DNA of 64,000 nucleotides, taken from NCBI GenBank assembly GCA_035691305.1, contig DASSJF010000073.1, positions 1-64,000 of the forward strand, read 5' to 3'. Under the pieces are notes generated by a model. It worked only from the letters and a program-made list of their open reading frames with translations, did no database searches and had not been told where the DNA came from. Of the stretch, positions 15,193-27,921 are shown in pieces. The stretch comes from a bacterium. Its GTDB lineage: Bacteria > Sysuimicrobiota > Sysuimicrobiia > Sysuimicrobiales > Segetimicrobiaceae. Every line of letters begins with the position of its first letter. The first letter of the stretch is position 1. Position numbers and translations under genes: made by a program.

Positions 15193-15603
15193 GTGGACGT
15201 GGAGCTCGTTCTGGACGGCGTGACGGCGCGGGTGACCTTGCTCGAGATGGCGGCGCCGCGCACCACGAAGGCGCTGTGGGAGGCGCTTCCGATCAGCGAC
15301 CGCGCCGTGCAGGTCAAGTGGTCGGGCGACGCGTGGCGGACCGAAGGCGACTACGACATCGGCATCACCGCGGTCGAGAACGAGGGACACGTGCTGGCGG
15401 CCGGCGATCTCATCTACTACCCGCGGATGAAGAAGATCGGTCTGGCCTATGGGCGCGCGGAGTGGCGTCACCCCGACCTTTCGTTCGCGCTCCACGTGTC
15501 CGTGATCGGCAGGGTGAGCTCGCAGCTCGAGGCCGTCGTCGCCGCGAGCCGGCGCGTCTGGCTCGAGGGCGCGCGTCCGCTGCGGCTGAGCCGGGCAGAG
15601 TAG
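15193..15603 (+). CDS. DUF3830-like (cyclophilin-like fold) protein, single domain
   Basis: A 136-residue protein of a family of unknown function that I place with DUF3830, predicted to have a cyclophilin-like barrel. Typical pieces are KALWEALPISDRAVQVKWSGDAW and AAGDLIYYPRMKKIGLAYGRAEW. The GTG at 15193 follows AGGAGCGG. It shares its core with each half of the tandem protein at 27016-27921. It is codirectional with cydAB but tail-to-tail with importer B (15 bp apart), so it may belong functionally to that catabolic block. Role unknown; no catalytic residues can be named. Confidence 0.75.
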   Translation: MDVELVLDGVTARVTLLEMAAPRTTKALWEALPISDRAVQVKWSGDAWRTEGDYDIGITAVENEGHVLAAGDLIYYPRMKKIGLAYGRAEWRHPDLSFALHVSVIGRVSSQLEAVVAASRRVWLEGARPLRLSRAE

Positions 15604-19004: not shown

Positions 19005-19276
19005 CTGGCCCCCTGCCTCAGCATCGACTTGGCCCCGTCATCGAGCAACCCGGCCGCTTGACGGCCGCGGTCCGCCGGCAAGCCGGCATCCCGCGGTTAG
19101 TGGGCTTCTTTCTGGACTGAGCCGTCCGCGCTCCTGCGTTCCGGCCGTCCGTACGCCGTCCACGCCGCGCTTCGATGGATTCGTCCGCGGTCCCCGGAGG
19201 GAGGAGGTGGGCGAGTCACCCCCGACCGAAGGAGTCACGGGATCACGACAAAAATTCCCGGCCGAAGGCTCCGCCG
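19005..19276. other. Divergent intergenic region, importer B / enolase-family operon
   Basis: A 272 bp non-coding gap between divergent units, which must carry both promoters. It contains GAGTCAC twice, at 19213-19219 and 19232-19238, near a G-rich tract, and an AT-rich ACAAAAATT run at 19247-19256. I cannot assign a riboswitch or a clear operator. Confidence 0.4.
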
Positions 19277-20401
19277 ATGCACATCGAGACCGTCCGCGCG
19301 ATTCCCCTGCTCGCCACGATCGATCCGCCCCAGCGGATCGGCCGGGCCACGTTCACCAAACTCGGCGTGACGCTCGTCGAGGTCCGGTCCGACACCGGCC
19401 TCGTGGGCTACGGCGAATGTCTCGGCCGCTACGCGCCGCGGATCTGGGCGGCCATCGTGGACGACCTGCTGGCGCCGCTCGTGGCCGGGGAGGATCCATG
19501 GGACACCGAGCGGCTGTGGGAGCGTATGTTTCGCGACCTGCGCTCGCTCAGCGGACACAGCCGGGGCATGCTGGTCGAAGGGATCGCCGGCGTCGACACG
19601 GCGCTGTGGGACCTTAAAGGGAAGGCGGCGGGCCGGCCGGTGTCGGCGCTGCTCGGAGGGCGCGTGCGGAGCCGGCTCAGCGCCTATGCATCCTCCGTGA
19701 TGGTGCGCGAGCCCGAGGCGATGGCGGCGGACGCTGCGGAGGTGGTGGCACGCGGCTTCCGCGCCCTGAAGGTCAAGATCGGCACCGGGGTTGAGAGCGA
19801 CGCCGCCGTCATCCGCGGCGTCCGCCGCGCCGTGGGCGACGCGGTCGACCTGATGGTCGACGCGAACGGCGCGTACCGGGCGGCAGAGGCGATCGACTTG
19901 ATCCGGCGCATCGACGACTGTCGAATCACGTGGTTCGAGGAGCCGGTGCCTCCCGATGATCTGGAAGGGTACCGCCGCATCCGCGCGGCGACGACGATGC
20001 GCCTGGCGGCCGGCGAGGGCGAGTTCACGCGCTTCGGCGTGCGCGACGTGCTCGCGGCGGACGCGGTAGACGTGATCCAGCCCGACGTGGCGCGGGCCGG
20101 CGGCATCAGCGAGACGAGGAAGATCACGGAACTGGCCGCGACGCACCACGTCGCCTACGCGCCCCACGTCGGGTTCTCGTCGATCGTCTGTGTGGCGGCG
20201 ACCCTGCAACTCGCCGCCGCGGCGCCGAACTTCCTGACCTACGAGTGCATGTACACCGCCAACCCGCTCCGCGAACGCCTGGCGGTGACCGCGTTGGGCG
20301 GCCCCGCCCAGCTCGACGACGGCCGGGTGCCGGTGCCGCAGGGGCCGGGCCTCGGACTCGAGCTGGATCCGGACGCGCTCGCCTTCTACGCGGCGACGTA
20401 G
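19277..20401 (+). CDS. Mandelate racemase/muconate lactonizing enzyme family protein
   Basis: A 374-residue enolase-superfamily enzyme, which abstracts the alpha-proton of a carboxylate for racemisation, dehydration or cycloisomerisation. The barrel shows KVKIGTG (Lys-x-Lys general base), DANGAY and EEPVPPDD metal ligands, GEGEFTR for the third ligand, QPDVARAGG, and His in APHVGFSS on the last strands, which puts it with the mandelate-racemase-like subgroup. The ATG at 19277 is used because the barrel cap domain begins there (MHIETVRAIPLL); its ribosome site is weak. It is the first gene of a rightward run that continues through importer C. Probable substrate: an acid sugar or hydroxy acid. 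Confidence 0.88.
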   Translation: MHIETVRAIPLLATIDPPQRIGRATFTKLGVTLVEVRSDTGLVGYGECLGRYAPRIWAAIVDDLLAPLVAGEDPWDTERLWERMFRDLRSLSGHSRGMLVEGIAGVDTALWDLKGKAAGRPVSALLGGRVRSRLSAYASSVMVREPEAMAADAAEVVARGFRALKVKIGTGVESDAAVIRGVRRAVGDAVDLMVDANGAYRAAEAIDLIRRIDDCRITWFEEPVPPDDLEGYRRIRAATTMRLAAGEGEFTRFGVRDVLAADAVDVIQPDVARAGGISETRKITELAATHHVAYAPHVGFSSIVCVAATLQLAAAAPNFLTYECMYTANPLRERLAVTALGGPAQLDDGRVPVPQGPGLGLELDPDALAFYAAT

Positions 20402-20425
20402 GGCCGCCGAAGGAGGATGCTTCCC

Positions 20426-21331
20426 ATGAGATCGCGCCGAAGGGCGGCCCGGCCGGTGCGCGCGCCGGTTGTCCCCGCCGACCCGCGCCTCAGCCGCTTC
20501 AGCCCGCTGTCGCGGATCCTGTGCTTCGACGATTTCGACTACGGATTCAACGGCTGGGGCGGCCACATCGGCAACTACGAAGGGTCGCTCGACACGATGC
20601 TGCCGGACTACCGGGATCTGCGTCCGCCGATGCTCAGCACGATCCCGATGTGGGACACCGGGTCGGTCGGGGGCGTCGACGGCGCCTACGCCCTCAAACT
20701 GGCGACCCGGCCGGCGGCGGGCAGCCTCGCGGTCGCGATCAAGCGCCTCACGTGGCGGTACGCCGGGCCGATCCAGATCGAGTTCGCCTTTACGTTCAAG
20801 CCCGAAGCCTCGGCGCTCGCACTGCTGGAAACGGAGGTCCGGGCGTTCGGCTTCGCGTTCGACCTTCAGGCCGGTGACCGCGCCGCCCCGCCCCGCGAGC
20901 GGGTCATGCCGCATCTCCGCTACCTCAACGCGCTGGAGGGGCGGCGGATGGAAAAGTGGCAGTTCAAGCGCGTCGTCGAACCGCTGCGCGACATCGGCGG
21001 CAGCGGCAAGACGCGGTCGCACTTCCACCTCGCGCCGTCGGGCTGGGAAGACGTGCCGGACGGCGGCCAGCAGCTGTGCTACAACGAAATCGCCACCAAG
21101 CACAACTGGTACTACGTGAAGATCGGCTTCGATCTCGCGTCGATGAGCTTCACGGCCTTCCGGTGCAACGACCGTGAGTTCGATCCGGCCGGGATCGCGC
21201 CGATGCGGTTTGCGGCGATGCCGAACCTCTCGTGCATGCTGAACCCCTTCGTGTGGGTCGAGGCGGACGGCGATGTGCGGGCGTTCCTCTACCTCGACTC
21301 GGTCGTTTTGTCGGCGGAGGTGGACGCGTGA
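20426..21331 (+). CDS. Protein of unknown function (possibly DUF6772-like)
   Basis: A 301-residue protein I cannot assign to a characterised family. It opens with a basic tail, then LCFDDFDYGFNGWGGHIGNY, and is rich in aromatic and short strand-forming segments (IQIEFAFTFKPEAS, FRCNDREFD, RAFLYLDSVVLS), suggesting a beta-sandwich or jelly-roll carbohydrate-binding-like fold. No signal peptide is seen. AGGAGG at 20411-20416 touches an ATG at 20417 and is nine bases before the ATG at 20426, which is therefore the better start. It overlaps the next small gene (GTGA) and lies between an enolase-superfamily enzyme and importer C, so a role in processing that importer's substrate is the best guess. 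Confidence 0.75.
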   Translation: MRSRRRAARPVRAPVVPADPRLSRFSPLSRILCFDDFDYGFNGWGGHIGNYEGSLDTMLPDYRDLRPPMLSTIPMWDTGSVGGVDGAYALKLATRPAAGSLAVAIKRLTWRYAGPIQIEFAFTFKPEASALALLETEVRAFGFAFDLQAGDRAAPPRERVMPHLRYLNALEGRRMEKWQFKRVVEPLRDIGGSGKTRSHFHLAPSGWEDVPDGGQQLCYNEIATKHNWYYVKIGFDLASMSFTAFRCNDREFDPAGIAPMRFAAMPNLSCMLNPFVWVEADGDVRAFLYLDSVVLSAEVDA

Positions 21332-21663
21332 TCCACCGCGGCCACACCGCGGTCGTCGAGCGCAACGTGCGGTGGGCCGGGGCGTTCTCGACCGAGCCTT
21401 ATGAGGCCGCGTGGGCCTCGGAAGCGATCTTCTTTGTCCGGACGCTCGAGCCCGGCACGCTGCGGACGGAGGCCGCGGCGCGGGTGCAGATCTCACCCGA
21501 CGGGATGCGGTGGGCGGACGAAGGGACGGCGGTGCCGCTGCGCGCCGGGCTCGGGGTGACGTTCGGGCGCGTTTCGCACTTCGGCGGGTGGCTCCGTCTC
21601 GCGGGCGAACTCGGTCCGGGCGAGGCCCTCACCGTGATCGTCTATCTGGTGTTGAAAGAGTAG
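21328..21663 (+). CDS. Small protein of unknown function, coupled to the preceding gene
   Basis: A 111-residue protein with alternating strand-like segments (SEAIFFVRTLEPGTL, ARVQISPDGMRWADEG, GGWLRLAGELGPGEALTVIVYLVLKE), probably a small beta-sandwich. No family is recognised. The GTG at 21328 overlaps the preceding stop (GTGA), and importer C starts 10 bp after its end, so it is translated with both. It may be a partner of the 301-residue protein. Its short length and lack of motifs limit any claim. Confidence 0.7.
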   Translation: MIHRGHTAVVERNVRWAGAFSTEPYEAAWASEAIFFVRTLEPGTLRTEAAARVQISPDGMRWADEGTAVPLRAGLGVTFGRVSHFGGWLRLAGELGPGEALTVIVYLVLKE

Positions 21664-21673
21664 GGGCACGCGG

Positions 21674-22594
21674 GTGGGCGCGTATCTTGTCAAGCGGCTT
21701 GCCTACTCGGTGTTCGTCGTCTGGGGCGCCGTCACGATCGTTTTTGTGGTGGTGCGCCTGATCCCGGGCGATCCGGCGCAGCTGATGGTCGGGGCCGAAG
21801 GGACGCGCGCGGACGTCGAAGCCCTGCGGCACCGCCTCGGACTCGACCAGCCGCTCGCGGCGCAGTACGTGCGCTACCTCGGCCAGGCGGCGGCGCTGCG
21901 CTTCGGCAACTCGCTCCGTCTCGAGGTTCCCGCCGCGGCCGCGGTGGCGCAGCGCGTGCCGGCGACGGCCACGCTCGCCGCGAGCGCGATGGTGCTCGGC
22001 GTGGCGGCGAGTATGCCACTCGGGATCGTCGCCGCGCTCCACCGGCAGTCGATCCTCGACCGCGCCGTCGCGGTGGTCTCGCTCATCGGGCAGTCGGTAC
22101 CCAACTTTTGGCTCGGCATCATGTTCATCCTGATTTTCGCGCGGGGCCTGCGGTGGTTCCCGAGCGCCGGGACCGGCGGCCTCGAGCATCTCGCCCTGCC
22201 GGCGGCGACGCTCGCCCTGCTGCTCGTCGGCGTGCTGACGCGTCTAGTGCGCAGCGGGCTGCTCGACGTGCTCGACGAGGAGTACGTCCGCTCCGCCTAC
22301 GCGAAGGGCCTGCCCGTCCGGCGGGTGATCAACCGGCATGCGCTGCCGAACATGTTGATCCCGGTGGTGACGGTCGTCGGCCTGCAGCTGGGATCGCTGC
22401 TCGCGGGAGCCGTGATCGTCGAGACCGTGTTCGGCTGGGCCGGCGTGGGCCGTCTACTGGTCGATGCGATCAGCAACCGCGACTACCCGATCGTGCAGGC
22501 GGCGGTGCTGTTCATCACCGTGGGATTCATCGCGGTGAATCTGGTCGTCGATCTCAGCTACGCGTACCTCGATCCCCGGATCCGTTATCGATGA
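21674..22594 (+). CDS. ABC importer C: DppB-type permease
   Basis: A 306-residue permease starting at a GTG (GAYLVKRLAYSVFVVWGAVT), with PGDPAQLMVG, an EAA loop (EYVRSAYAKGLPVRRVINRHALPN) and a DPRIRYR end. Its stop overlaps the dppC start (ATGA). It is fourth in the rightward run that starts with the enolase-superfamily gene. Confidence 0.93.
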   Translation: MGAYLVKRLAYSVFVVWGAVTIVFVVVRLIPGDPAQLMVGAEGTRADVEALRHRLGLDQPLAAQYVRYLGQAAALRFGNSLRLEVPAAAAVAQRVPATATLAASAMVLGVAASMPLGIVAALHRQSILDRAVAVVSLIGQSVPNFWLGIMFILIFARGLRWFPSAGTGGLEHLALPAATLALLLVGVLTRLVRSGLLDVLDEEYVRSAYAKGLPVRRVINRHALPNMLIPVVTVVGLQLGSLLAGAVIVETVFGWAGVGRLLVDAISNRDYPIVQAAVLFITVGFIAVNLVVDLSYAYLDPRIRYR

Positions 22595-23514
22595 CGGCCC
22601 GGGTCGGGGCCGCGGGGGCGGCGCGGGCCGCCGGCGGGCGTTCCGGTGAAGCGACCTGGCAGGCGGGACAGCGCCGCCGTCAGCAGCGCCGGGCACGGCG
22701 CCTGGCGGCGTGGGGTGTTCCGGTCGCGCTCTTCGTCGTGATCGCCGTGGTGGGCCCGATCCTGGTGCCGTACGACCCGGTGACCGTCCGGCTCGCCGAC
22801 CGGACCCGGCCGCCCGGAGCCGTGCTGCACGACGGCAGGCGCGCGTGGCTGGGCACGGATCAGGTCGGCAAAGACCTCGTCGCGCAGGTCCTCCAGGGCG
22901 CCCGCATCTCGCTGCTCGTCGGGGTCGCGACCGTGGCGGTCGCCGGGGTCATCGGGCTCGCGACGGGGGTGCCCGCGGGCTACTTCGGCGGGGCCGTCGA
23001 CGGCGTCCTCATGCGGCTTGCCGATCTCCAACTCGCGTTCCCCTCGCTGTTGCTGGCGATCCTGATCGCGGCCGTGCTCGGACGGAGTGTCACCAACGTC
23101 ATCATTACCTTGTCGGTGACCCGCTGGGTGACCTTCGCTCGGGTGACGCGCGCCACCACGCTCGCGATGCGGGAGCGGGAGTTTGTCACCGCGGCCAGGG
23201 CCACCGGCGCGAGCACCCGGCGGATCATGAGCCGGCACATCGTGCCGCTCACCGTCACGCCGCTCGTAGTGGTGGCGACCGTGGAACTCGGGCTGGTGAT
23301 CCTGGCCGAAGCCTCGCTCAGTTTCCTCGGGCTCGGGACGCCGCCCGGCCATCCGTCCTGGGGCCTCATCATTGCCAACGGGCGCAACTACCTCAGCACC
23401 GCGTGGTGGATCTCGACGATCCCGGGGATCGCGCTCAGCCTCGTAATCCTGGCCGTCGGCCTGTTCGGCGATCAGCTCAACGAGTATCTGAACCCAAAGG
23501 CGGCATCGCGGTAA
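22591..23514 (+). CDS. ABC importer C: DppC-type permease
   Basis: A 307-residue permease with an Arg/Gln-rich cytoplasmic tail of about 45 residues, then a hydrophobic helix, WLGTDQVGKDLVAQV (a variant of the usual GTDDLGRD signature, with Lys in place of Arg) and an EAA loop (EFVTAARATGASTRRIMSRHIVP). The ATG overlaps the dppB stop. The protein ends LFGDQLNEYLNPKAASR instead of the usual LRDxLDPR. Confidence 0.92.
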   Translation: MTARVGAAGAARAAGGRSGEATWQAGQRRRQQRRARRLAAWGVPVALFVVIAVVGPILVPYDPVTVRLADRTRPPGAVLHDGRRAWLGTDQVGKDLVAQVLQGARISLLVGVATVAVAGVIGLATGVPAGYFGGAVDGVLMRLADLQLAFPSLLLAILIAAVLGRSVTNVIITLSVTRWVTFARVTRATTLAMREREFVTAARATGASTRRIMSRHIVPLTVTPLVVVATVELGLVILAEASLSFLGLGTPPGHPSWGLIIANGRNYLSTAWWISTIPGIALSLVILAVGLFGDQLNEYLNPKAASR

Positions 23515-23567: not shown

Positions 23568-25130
23568 ATGGACACATCTCCGAGCGGTGGCAAGAGGGGT
23601 GCGATGACGCGCCGCGCATGGCTGCAGGGCACCGCGGCGGTCGCAGGCGGAGTCCTCGGCATGGGCACGCGGTGGAGTCTGCCGGCGTCCGCCGCGCCGC
23701 CGTCGAGGGTGCCCGCCGGCACTTTGACCGTGTCGCTGCCGGCAAGGATCGTGGGGCTCGATCCCCTCGGCACGCAGGCCGCGGAAGAGTCGCTCAGGAC
23801 CGCGACCGCCGGCATCTTCGATACGCTCGCCGTCCGCAGCCCCCGGTCGGCCACTTACCTTCCGTCGCTGGCGACGAAGTGGGAGACGCCTGATCCGCTG
23901 ACGTGGGTGTTCACGCTCCGGCCGGGCGTGAAATTCCAGGACGGCACGGCGCTGACCGCGAACGACGTCAAGGCGTCGCTGCAGCGTCTCGTGGCGCTGA
24001 AGGGACCCTACGCGCCGCTCTGGGTCGCCCTGGATACGGTCGATGCCCCGAGTGACACCACCGTCCGCATCAAGACGAAGACGCCGTTCGGCGCGATGCT
24101 GCCCAACGTCTCGCTGCTCTCGATCGCCCCCGCGGCCAAGATGGATCAGCCGGGGTTCTTCACGAAGCCGTTCGGCTCGGGCCCTTTCCGCGTCGTTTCG
24201 TATCAGCCGGACGCCGAGTTGGTGCTCGAGGCCAACCCCGGCTACTGGGGACCGGCGCCTGGGGTCCGGACCCTGCGGTTCAAAGACATTCCGGAGGTGG
24301 CGGCCCGTGTCACCGCCCTCATCACCGGGGAGATCGATCTGACCTTCGGGCTGCCCCCCGACCAGATCGCGGCGCTTCAGGGGCACAAAGACATCCGCCT
24401 GATGAGCACTCCGTCCTTCCGCTACTACATGGTCTGGATGAACTGCAAGCGCGCCCCGTTTCCGGACGCCCGGGTGCGCCAGGCCATGGCCTACGCGCTC
24501 GACGTCGACACCATCGTCAAGACGCTGATGAAGGGCATCGGCCGGCGAATGAGCGCCCCGATCCCCTCGACGGCCTTTGGGTACGCTCCGCAGCGGCCGT
24601 TTGCCTACGACCCGGCGAAGGCGAAACAGCTGCTCGCCGCGGCCGGGCGTCCGTCCGGGTTCGAGTGCACCATGATCTGGAACCCGGACTCCGGCCCCCA
24701 GGACCGCGAGCTGGCCCAGGCACTCTTCTCGTACTGGAACGCGGTCGGGATCAGGGTGCGCGACGGCCAGGCGGAACGTCCGCAGTGGCTGGACAAGCTG
24801 CTCAAACTCGACTGGGACCTGAACTTCCAGTCCAACGGCGATGCGACAGGCGACGCCGACTTTGTGCTGCGGCGCCTGTACACGACCCAGGCCAACCGGA
24901 ACGGCTACGCCAACCCGCAGCTCGACCAGATCCTGAACGGCGCGGTCGAGACGGTCGACCAGGCCCGGCGCAAGCTCCTCTACGCGCAGGCGTGCGAGAT
25001 CATTTGGGACCAGGCCGTCGGCGTCTACCCGGTGGAGCTGATCCAGACGTACGCGCTGCGCGGGGGGGTTGAAGGGTTCGTCCTGACCCCGAACTACCCG
25101 ACGTTCGAGTCGGTCACCGTCCGCCGGTAG
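23568..25130 (+). CDS. ABC importer C: family 5 solute-binding protein, Tat-type leader
   Basis: A 520-residue binding protein. MTRRAWLQGTAAVAGG is a twin-arginine-like leader ending near an ASAAPP cleavage region. The mature part has GTLTVSLPARIVGLDPLGTQ and LRPGVKFQDGTALTANDVK. An ATG at 23568 with GGGGGGAGA is the best start; the Met at 23604 sits directly before the arginines and is an alternative. The run continues 25 bp later into a PLP-enzyme gene, so the binding protein sits in the middle of its catabolic operon. Confidence 0.9.
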   Translation: MDTSPSGGKRGAMTRRAWLQGTAAVAGGVLGMGTRWSLPASAAPPSRVPAGTLTVSLPARIVGLDPLGTQAAEESLRTATAGIFDTLAVRSPRSATYLPSLATKWETPDPLTWVFTLRPGVKFQDGTALTANDVKASLQRLVALKGPYAPLWVALDTVDAPSDTTVRIKTKTPFGAMLPNVSLLSIAPAAKMDQPGFFTKPFGSGPFRVVSYQPDAELVLEANPGYWGPAPGVRTLRFKDIPEVAARVTALITGEIDLTFGLPPDQIAALQGHKDIRLMSTPSFRYYMVWMNCKRAPFPDARVRQAMAYALDVDTIVKTLMKGIGRRMSAPIPSTAFGYAPQRPFAYDPAKAKQLLAAAGRPSGFECTMIWNPDSGPQDRELAQALFSYWNAVGIRVRDGQAERPQWLDKLLKLDWDLNFQSNGDATGDADFVLRRLYTTQANRNGYANPQLDQILNGAVETVDQARRKLLYAQACEIIWDQAVGVYPVELIQTYALRGGVEGFVLTPNYPTFESVTVRR

Positions 25131-25155: not shown

Positions 25156-26172
25156 ATGCGGGGACTGGACCGCCTGCCGCGGGTGTCCCTCGTGCGGGCG
25201 CCGACCCCGCTCGAGGACGCGCCGCGCCTCGCGGCGGCGCTCGGCGTGCGGCGCCTCCTGGTCAAGCGGGAGGACCTCACGGATCTCGCGCTCGGCGGCA
25301 ACAAGGTGCGCAAGCTCGAGTTCCTCTTCGGCGAGGCGCTCGCCCAGGGGGCCGATACGATCGTCACCACGGCGAGCGCGCACTCCAACTTCCTGCGCAT
25401 CGTGTCGGCGGGCGCGCGCCGCTTCGGTCTGCGGCCGGTGCTGCTGGTGCGCGGCCGGGCGGATCTGCCGTCCGAAGGCAACCTCCTCCTGATGCGGCTA
25501 TTCGCGGAACGCATCGTCTATCTCGACACCGAGGACCCGTACGCGGATACGACCATCGCCACGATGCGCGACCTGGAGCAGGAGCTCCGGCGGTGCGGGC
25601 GGCGCCCGTATCTGATTCATCTGGCCGCGTTCTCCGCCGGTCTCGCCACCGCCGCGTATGTTCCGGCCGCGGAAGAACTCGCCGCGCAGCTCCGGGAACG
25701 CGGGGGCGGCTGCGATCGTATCGTGCTGGCCGTCGGGTCCGGCGGCACCTACGCCGGCCTGCTGCTGGGCCTGCGCGCGGCGGGCGTCTCGGCGCCGGTG
25801 CTCGGCGTTTCCGTCAACACCGCGGCCGGCGAGATGCACCGCCGCATTCGCGACCAGATTCGCGCGGCGGAGGACCTCCTCGGCATGACGCCGTCGGTGC
25901 GCGACGACGAGATCGACATCACCGACGCGCACGTCGGGGCCGGCTACGGCATTCCCACCGCCGACAGCCTGGCCGCCGTCACGCTGGCCGCGCGCACCGA
26001 AGGACTGCTGCTGGACCCGATCTATACGGGCAAGGCGTGGGCCGCGCTCGCCCACGCGGTCCGGACCGGCGCGGTCCGGCCGCCGGACACGGTCGTGTTC
26101 ATGCACACGGGCGGGGCGCCCAACACCTTCGTTCACGGCGCCGAGATCTCGGCGGCCCTCCCGGCGACGTAG
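25156..26172 (+). CDS. PLP-dependent D-cysteine desulfhydrase/ACC deaminase-like enzyme
   Basis: A 338-residue fold-type II PLP enzyme of the D-cysteine desulfhydrase / ACC deaminase family, which deaminates small D-amino acids. The PLP lysine lies in LALGGNKVRKLEFL. The next conserved block, normally a QSNH motif, here reads AHSNFLRI, so the residue after Ser-Asn is Phe. A phosphate-binding glycine loop (GSGGTYAGLLLG) follows. The ATG at 25156 has GAGGGG upstream. It is flanked by importer C and an RraA-like gene, so the imported compound is probably an amino acid derivative. The substrate is open because of the altered motif. Confidence 0.82.
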   Translation: MRGLDRLPRVSLVRAPTPLEDAPRLAAALGVRRLLVKREDLTDLALGGNKVRKLEFLFGEALAQGADTIVTTASAHSNFLRIVSAGARRFGLRPVLLVRGRADLPSEGNLLLMRLFAERIVYLDTEDPYADTTIATMRDLEQELRRCGRRPYLIHLAAFSAGLATAAYVPAAEELAAQLRERGGGCDRIVLAVGSGGTYAGLLLGLRAAGVSAPVLGVSVNTAAGEMHRRIRDQIRAAEDLLGMTPSVRDDEIDITDAHVGAGYGIPTADSLAAVTLAARTEGLLLDPIYTGKAWAALAHAVRTGAVRPPDTVVFMHTGGAPNTFVHGAEISAALPAT

Positions 26173-26189: not shown

Positions 26190-26930
26190 ATGCACGGTCC
26201 GGATTTCCCGCGCCCGCGCGCAGAGACGCTGGCGCCGCTGCGCCGAGCGAGCACCGCCACGCTCACCACGATCTTTAGGCGGAAGAAGGGCATCACGAAT
26301 ATCTGGATGCCGCTGCGGCCGCTGTTTCCCGGAATGAGGGCCGTCGGGCCGGCGCTCACGATCAGAAGCGTGCCCGGCCGCGACGACCTCCAGCCGATCG
26401 CCTACGCTCCGGGGACGCTGTTCCCGGGCCATCCCGACGAGGCGATCGAGGCCGTCCAGCCGGGCGACGTCGTGGTGCTGGACGGCGGCGGCGCCGCCAA
26501 CGAAGGGCTGTTCGGAGACCTCCTGACGCTGCGCATTAAGATGAAGGGTGCGGCCGGCATCGTCTCCGACATGTGCGTTCGCGACTCGCCCCGCCTGGCC
26601 GAGAAGGGTGTGCCGATCTTCTGCAGGGGATGCGTGAGCCCCGGCGGCAGCGTGTTCAACGTGGACTACAACGTGCCGATCGGATGCGCGGGGGTGTTGG
26701 TCTGCCCGGGCGACATCATGGCCGGGGACGACGACGGGGTCGTCGTGATTCCACGCGCCATGGTCGAGGACGTGGTGGACGAAGTCCTCCTGCACGAAGA
26801 TCGGGAAGAGTACATCCGCCTGATGCTGTCGCGCGGCGCGCCGCTCGAGGGCCTTTATCCGATGGGGCCGGAGATGGAACGGCGCTTCCTGGAGTGGCGG
26901 CGCGAGACCCACCCCCGGCCGGACAAATAG
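26190..26930 (+). CDS. RraA-like aldolase/demethylmenaquinone methyltransferase family protein
   Basis: A 246-residue protein of the RraA / HMG aldolase family, Mg-dependent class II pyruvate aldolases that resemble, and are often misnamed as, menaquinone methyltransferases. It has the VGPALTI strand, PGDVVVLDGGGAANEGLFGDL, the metal-binding Arg-Asp pair in SDMCVRDSP and a closing VCPGDIMAGDDDGVVVIP. It starts 18 bp after the PLP enzyme, so deamination followed by aldol cleavage is a reasonable order. Two relatives lie at 31426 and 62914. Confidence 0.85.
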   Translation: MHGPDFPRPRAETLAPLRRASTATLTTIFRRKKGITNIWMPLRPLFPGMRAVGPALTIRSVPGRDDLQPIAYAPGTLFPGHPDEAIEAVQPGDVVVLDGGGAANEGLFGDLLTLRIKMKGAAGIVSDMCVRDSPRLAEKGVPIFCRGCVSPGGSVFNVDYNVPIGCAGVLVCPGDIMAGDDDGVVVIPRAMVEDVVDEVLLHEDREEYIRLMLSRGAPLEGLYPMGPEMERRFLEWRRETHPRPDK

Positions 26931-27015: not shown

Positions 27016-27921
27016 ATGAGGTTCATGGAGATCGAACTCGACGGCGCGGTATGCCGGGCACTGTTGAACGAAGAGAAGGCCCCCAAGACCTCGCAGGCCG
27101 TCTGGGAGGCGCTGCCTTTCGAGGGCCGCGCCGTCCACGCGCAGGTCTCGGGAGACATGTTCCGGATGTTGGACGAGGCGCCCGTCGGCGAGCTCGACCT
27201 CGAAAGCGCCACGTTTTTTCAGCATCCGGGGTCCGTGGTCTTCTATCCTCCGATCAAGGAGATAGCGTTTTGCATCGGCGAGGCCGCGTTTGCCGCCACG
27301 CAAGGGTTCTTCAAAGTCACTCCGCTTGCGGAACTGGAACCCGATTTCAGCGAGTGGGCGAAAAAAGGCGATGCGTTGCGGCTCAGCGGCACCAAGCGGA
27401 TTCGATTCCGCCGCGCTGCCGACCAGACGACGCCGTTCCGGTATCGGGCCCGCCGCGGGCGCAAGCTCGAGGTGCAGTTCGGCGGCGCGCGCCTCACCGC
27501 GACGCTGCTCGAGGACGAGTACCCCAAGGCGTCCCGGGCGTTTGCCCGCCTGCTGCCGCTCGAAGGCCAGGCGGCGAACTCCATGTGGGGCGCCGCGATT
27601 ACCCGTTTCTATCCCCGATCGGCGCGCCGGCCGGGAGTCCGTCTGTCCGGGGCGATCGAACGCGGCACCACGTTCCACTGGCCCGGTTACATCTATTACG
27701 ACCCCGCCGACCGCGGCATCTGCCTCTGCTACGGGGACGCGGCGGAGGGCCTGCAGGGCAATCCAACAGCCCTGGTCCCGGTGGCGTGCTTCGACGGCGA
27801 CATCGCCCCCTACGTGCAGCAGGCGCAGCGCCAGCTCTTGGAGGGCGCCAAGCCCATGTCGATCACGATGGCGGGCGGGGCACCCACGCGCCGGGGGCGA
27901 GCGACGAAGGGACGGCGGTAA
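27016..27921 (+). CDS. Tandem DUF3830-like (cyclophilin-like) protein
   Basis: A 301-residue protein made of two related halves. Residues 1-135 contain QAVWEALPFEGRAVHAQVSGDMF and GSVVFYPPIKEIAFCIGEA; residues about 145-285 contain RAFARLLPLEGQAANSMWG and GYIYYDPADRGICLCYGDA. Each half matches the single-domain protein at 15193-15603, so an internal duplication is likely. A basic tail closes it. The ATG at 27016 follows AAGGGGG. It ends the importer C run and is tail-to-tail with importer D (7 bp). Function unknown. Confidence 0.78.
   Translation: MRFMEIELDGAVCRALLNEEKAPKTSQAVWEALPFEGRAVHAQVSGDMFRMLDEAPVGELDLESATFFQHPGSVVFYPPIKEIAFCIGEAAFAATQGFFKVTPLAELEPDFSEWAKKGDALRLSGTKRIRFRRAADQTTPFRYRARRGRKLEVQFGGARLTATLLEDEYPKASRAFARLLPLEGQAANSMWGAAITRFYPRSARRPGVRLSGAIERGTTFHWPGYIYYDPADRGICLCYGDAAEGLQGNPTALVPVACFDGDIAPYVQQAQRQLLEGAKPMSITMAGGAPTRRGRATKGRR

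Follow-up and report, generated by a model that had tools for sequence, protein, structure and literature searches.

The bacterial DNA studied here (64,000 nucleotides of contig DASSJF010000073.1, hereafter the window) carries two overlapping genes between an enolase-family gene and the genes of an importer, and the question it raises is what their products do. The preliminary description listed open reading frames of 301 and 111 residues sharing a GTGA overlap, and proposed that they encode a two-subunit enzyme or a binding pair for the imported compound. Both frames (20426-21331 and 21328-21663, forward strand), their overlap and their place between the enolase-family gene and the importer were confirmed from the sequence. 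An AAGGAGG ribosome-binding site was read at 20410-20416 on the forward strand, about 9 bases 5' of the ATG at 20426, which supports the start originally given for the larger gene. When the window was compared with the family-level relative L003, differences at codon positions 1, 2 and 3 numbered 50, 39 and 126 in the larger gene and 26, 16 and 55 in the smaller one. This bias indicates that both frames are translated genes, and the conservation of both proteins across phyla in our alignments likewise marks them as real genes.

The surrounding genes lie on the same strand. The MR/MLE enolase-superfamily gene (19271-20401; Pfam MR_MLE_N and _C) encodes a probable sugar-acid dehydratase or lactone cycloisomerase and ends 24 bases upstream of the pair. 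A Dpp-type importer permease (21674-22594; Pfam BPD_transp_1) starts 10 bases downstream and is followed by a second one (22591-23514, start approximate), seen as a permease-like ORF that ends at 23514, and by a solute-binding protein (23568-25130; Pfam SBP_bac_5) with a Tat-like signal at its N-terminus. The run continues with a PLP-dependent enzyme (25156-26172; Pfam PALP) and a protein of the RraA-like aldolase/decarboxylase family (26190-26930, start approximate), matched by Pfam RraA-like and, barely above cut-off, by NCBIfam PRK08245. It ends with a DUF3830 cyclophilin-like protein (27016-27921; Pfam DUF3830), in which two matched stretches suggest a duplicated domain. Another DUF3830 cyclophilin-like protein is encoded in the window at 15193-15603.

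The 301-aa protein, said earlier to contain no recognisable motifs, proved to be a full-length member of Pfam DUF6772 (PF20562), with a score of 385.4 bits against a gathering cut-off of 27 (E 2e-115). The match spans residues 15-298 and profile positions 4-283 of 284, and 39 homologues were aligned. DUF6772 was the only Pfam family matched in this protein at E up to 1; to our knowledge, it has been assigned no function. For the 111-aa protein the earlier statement stood, apart from a match to DUF6385 (PF19912) of 19.9 bits, below the curated cut-off of 26.8 and limited to positions 18-62 of the 82-position profile. The fact that a weak DUF6385 match recurred in all 18 small-protein homologues scanned (best E 4e-5) makes a remote relationship likely, and by profile comparison the small protein may at best be regarded as an unrecognised relative of that family. 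NCBIfam matched neither protein, and PDB sequence and profile searches with both gave nothing credible; matches to CD3 and to designed proteins were set aside as chance. Thus no clear match to a characterised enzyme was found for either protein. Literature searches for DUF6772, DUF6385 and PF20562 returned no paper, and we found no published description of an obligate small partner of DUF6772.

Both families are well conserved. The window's DUF6772 protein is 56-62% identical to those of other phyla, and 33 columns are invariant across 20 divergent homologues; the invariant polar residues include D36, E119, E127, R165, Y166, N168, N220, K225, Y230 and D236. The small protein has 15 invariant columns across 18 homologues. 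Several spirochaetes (G681, G673, G436 and G046) carry more than one DUF6772 copy per genome, and a divergent, longer spirochaete subtype has a different region in place of the conserved GKTxSHFHL motif.

Whether the two proteins always occur together was determined by whole-genome searches for both families in 638 genomes in total. Within the window's phylum, DUF6772 was found in 2 of 43 genomes and the small protein in the same two. The class of G049 (Caldilineaceae, Chloroflexota) contained DUF6772 in 19 of 298 genomes and the small protein in 18, all among the 19; the single exception was G385, whose DUF6772 match stops at a contig end. In the class of the spirochaete G046 the figures were 13 and 11 of 297, again one set inside the other, the exceptions being a partial match in G532 and a 96-base match with a stop codon in G442. 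These two, and G712, which like G442 has short matches with an internal stop codon, were left out of the count of lone copies. No genome of the 638 contained the small protein without DUF6772, and DUF6772 without the small protein was represented only by fragments or matches at a contig end. Co-occurrence gave hypergeometric P values of 6e-28 (class of G049) and 2e-18 (class of G046), in which relatedness of the genomes is ignored. All seven records with DUF6772 in the plasmid collection have the small gene adjoining. The proposal that homologues always come as a pair is therefore borne out almost without exception in genomes and plasmid records, and the small protein was never found to occur independently. 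Relatives were found in the window's phylum, Candidatus Poribacteria, Chloroflexota, Spirochaetota, Alphaproteobacteria and one actinomycete. Their occurrence is patchy: each class has them in a few per cent of its genomes, a pattern that would be expected of horizontally moved catabolic genes.

The small gene is adjacent in 40 of the 45 DUF6772 copies (42 loci). The remaining five comprise two second copies in a locus that already bears a pair, L078, which is cut by a contig end, and the Chloroflexota loci L053 and L062, in which the genes lie 1.4 and 7 kb apart. Four Chloroflexota loci and two from spirochaetes have the two genes in reverse order, still together. The separation in L053 and L062 indicates that contiguity is not essential, and it would fit two proteins, such as an epimerase or mutarotase with a small binding protein, that serve one pathway and are co-transcribed but make no contact. 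The divergences of the two proteins are, however, correlated (Mantel r 0.83; 19 non-redundant pairs, 10,000 permutations), and this correlation, together with near-perfect co-occurrence in unlike neighbourhoods, suits a complex better. We consider separate action highly improbable and infer that the two proteins form a physical complex.

Structure prediction gave results of different quality for the two subunits. The small protein was predicted with confidence to be a jelly-roll beta-sandwich (pLDDT 91.4). Its best overlaps in the PDB were with XepA (TM 0.66) and CBM-type domains, all at an E of 1e-3 or above, and it overlapped better with uncharacterised beta-sandwich proteins of tailed phages and archaeal viruses (TM up to 0.83). 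Although many uncharacterised proteins of tailed phages share this fold, we dropped the idea that the pair came from a phage, because no phage record encodes DUF6772 and a scan of viral contigs gave no relative. The DUF6772 model, built from a nine-sequence input, was weak (pLDDT 57, pTM 0.65, the first 96 residues below 50), with predicted secondary structure nearly all strand. The 50 PDB matches listed for it were ConA-like lectins, glucanases and similar sandwiches at TM 0.18-0.48. These matches are only suggestive because the model is poor, and a ConA-type lectin/glucanase beta-sandwich is thus a putative fold, held at low confidence. By a hydropathy check the N-termini of both families, some of them read from the start of the longest ORF, lack a signal peptide; a cytoplasmic location is accordingly assumed below.

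Lectins and carbohydrate-binding modules have folds like the two predicted here, and it is possible that the pair is a non-catalytic, lectin-like complex that binds or senses sugars in the cytoplasm, for example as a ligand buffer or as a partner of a regulator or importer. The linkage of the pair to importers would suit such a role, as would the absence of a known-family catalytic signature. We recognised in DUF6772 none of the catalytic motifs of known ConA-like hydrolases or lyases; there was no Pfam match to GH16 or another known ConA-like CAZy family, no ExDxxE motif was seen by eye in the large protein, and Pfam gave no AP_endonuc_2 match. Against pure binding, the 33 invariant columns, many of them polar, and the cross-phylum identity exceed in our judgement what is typical of lectin domains, and the clusters described below contain at least one enzymatic step with no assigned gene. 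We therefore rate a pure binder as rather unlikely. On this analysis the pair would more likely be an enzyme.

The 3-keto-disaccharide hydrolases of the DUF1080 family (PF06439) are ConA-like sandwiches. DUF6772 may share that fold, which its low-confidence model suggests, and like the pair they are found beside sugar oxidoreductases. Unlike them, the window protein (E up to 1) and 20 homologues have no PF06439 match. One DUF1080 member is a 3-ketotrehalose hydrolase and another was proposed to act on 3'-ketolactose; the Caulobacter crescentus protein has a putative signal peptide, which the pair lacks (PMC9007349). C-glycoside deglycosidase (CarB/CarC and relatives) is a two-subunit sugar-catabolic system in which neither subunit is active alone, the active site arises on heterodimerisation and one subunit is a small beta-sandwich (PMC8563793). 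The complex proposed for our pair would resemble it in having a small beta-sandwich subunit, whereas the large subunit of the deglycosidase is a TIM barrel and DUF6772 is predicted to be nearly all-beta and belongs to another family. These two systems are the closest working analogues of the pair, which is a member of neither.

What the pair may act on is suggested by its neighbours. In five alphaproteobacterial replicons and one spirochaete the pair adjoins an MR/MLE gene whose product is 42-48% identical to that of the window, so that the same gene is the neighbour of the pair in three phyla. Searches with the window's MR/MLE enzyme in seven other genomes or records gave the neighbour of the pair as top match in six; the seventh is G033, a genome of the window's own family, in which this linkage is absent. 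The window's genome encodes a further MR/MLE enzyme elsewhere (G000:C50:19767-20891), without DUF6772, that shares 51% identity with the one in the window. The residues of the MR subgroup (KxK, the D/E/E metal ligands and the H/D dyad) are kept in all six aligned neighbours, including that of the window. Its closest solved relatives include 3ozm, 3h12, 4ggb and 5olc, of which 4ggb is the galactarolactone cycloisomerase (Gci) of Agrobacterium. The likeness extends to the Udh-Gci oxidative pathway of uronates and aldarolactones, where a dehydrogenase and a lactone cycloisomerase yield keto-deoxy acids; the pathway as described differs in having no DUF6772 pair (PMC6353982).

In replicons of Chelatococcus, Roseomonas, Rhizobium and Terrarubrum the pair occurs with the MR/MLE gene, a FadR/GntR regulator, a sugar ABC importer and an SDR oxidoreductase, and one Rhizobium cluster adds an SMP-30 lactonase. 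The content of the L086 cluster was assigned by homology. In the spirochaete locus L068 the MR/MLE gene is divergent from DUF6772, the small protein, a solute-binding protein, two permeases, an SDR and an SMP-30 gene. A Dpp-type importer lies downstream of the pair in several Chloroflexota loci, as in the window. The suggestion that homologues stand beside enolase-superfamily or Dpp genes thus agrees with the window, five alphaproteobacterial loci and one spirochaete for MR/MLE, and with the window and Chloroflexota for Dpp. The MR/MLE linkage is the stronger evidence, since importers are common in such genomes.

Other neighbourhoods are more varied. Genes near the pair include those of PhyH, GFO/MocA, sulfatase, heparinase-like, mannitol dehydrogenase, apiosidase, amidohydrolase and xylose-isomerase-like proteins. 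In L063 (3985-8787) the genes after the pair encode a sulfatase, a protein with no Pfam match and a heparinase II/III-like protein, a content that points to sulfated uronic-acid glycans. Proteins of about 510-560 aa, up to four in tandem, are encoded near the pair in L054 (11691-13229), L004 (2124-3800) and their relatives in Chloroflexota and Poribacteria; this family has no significant Pfam match, and one member gave a non-significant F5/8 C hint. The MR/MLE gene is absent from beside the pair in the Poribacteria and Chloroflexota loci. Some loci adjoin McrBC, a DNA methylase or a histone deacetylase-like gene, and in the Chloroflexota loci L055 (4585-8526), L057 and L065 McrBC restriction genes come after the pair.

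Several of these observations would fit an autonomous cargo module that has nothing to do with sugars, serves in cell structure, stress or defence instead and frequently comes to lie in catabolic islands. No sugar genes lie near the pair in L006-L009 and L062; other loci stand beside McrBC, a D12 methylase and Schlafen-like gene, or AAA genes; neighbours differ between lineages, and some spirochaetes hold multiple copies. Such a module is nevertheless improbable in our estimation, for PADLOC matched neither protein, phage records and a scan of viral contigs gave no relative of DUF6772, and the arrangement of MR/MLE, importer and SDR is kept across phyla. A defence role, which the McrBC and methylase neighbours could bring to mind, was considered and judged unlikely.

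The pairing and the enolase and Dpp linkage thus support in part the original idea of a two-subunit enzyme or binding pair for the imported compound, of which the complex itself and the preference for an enzyme are what we infer. We put it at about an even chance that the pair is a cytoplasmic two-subunit complex that binds, and probably acts on, an imported saccharide or sugar lactone ahead of sugar-acid oxidation. In such a complex the DUF6772 subunit would bind the sugar or lactone and most likely cleave, ring-open or isomerise it, and the small jelly-roll subunit would complete or stabilise the DUF6772 subunit. The pair would act just after import, either ahead of the SDR and MR/MLE steps or in parallel with them. 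The product would then be oxidised by the SDR dehydrogenase, a lactone would be opened by the SMP-30 lactonase where present, and the MR/MLE enzyme would dehydrate or cycloisomerise the intermediate to a keto-deoxy sugar acid. More tentatively, the pair may be a cytoplasmic carbohydrate-active enzyme (a lyase, hydrolase or lactone/sugar isomerase) of a new, two-subunit and all-beta class, one that supplies a so far unassigned step in the catabolism of sugar acids in at least five phyla, a possibility that we regard as somewhat doubtful.

Two families of no assigned function are here joined as one unit, for which a class of substrate is predicted. A way to their function is offered by the conserved cluster of MR/MLE enzyme, DUF6772, small protein, sugar importer, SDR, FadR/GntR regulator and sometimes lactonase in Chelatococcus, Roseomonas and Rhizobium. 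If the pair is enzymatic, it would represent a new fold combination among two-subunit sugar enzymes.
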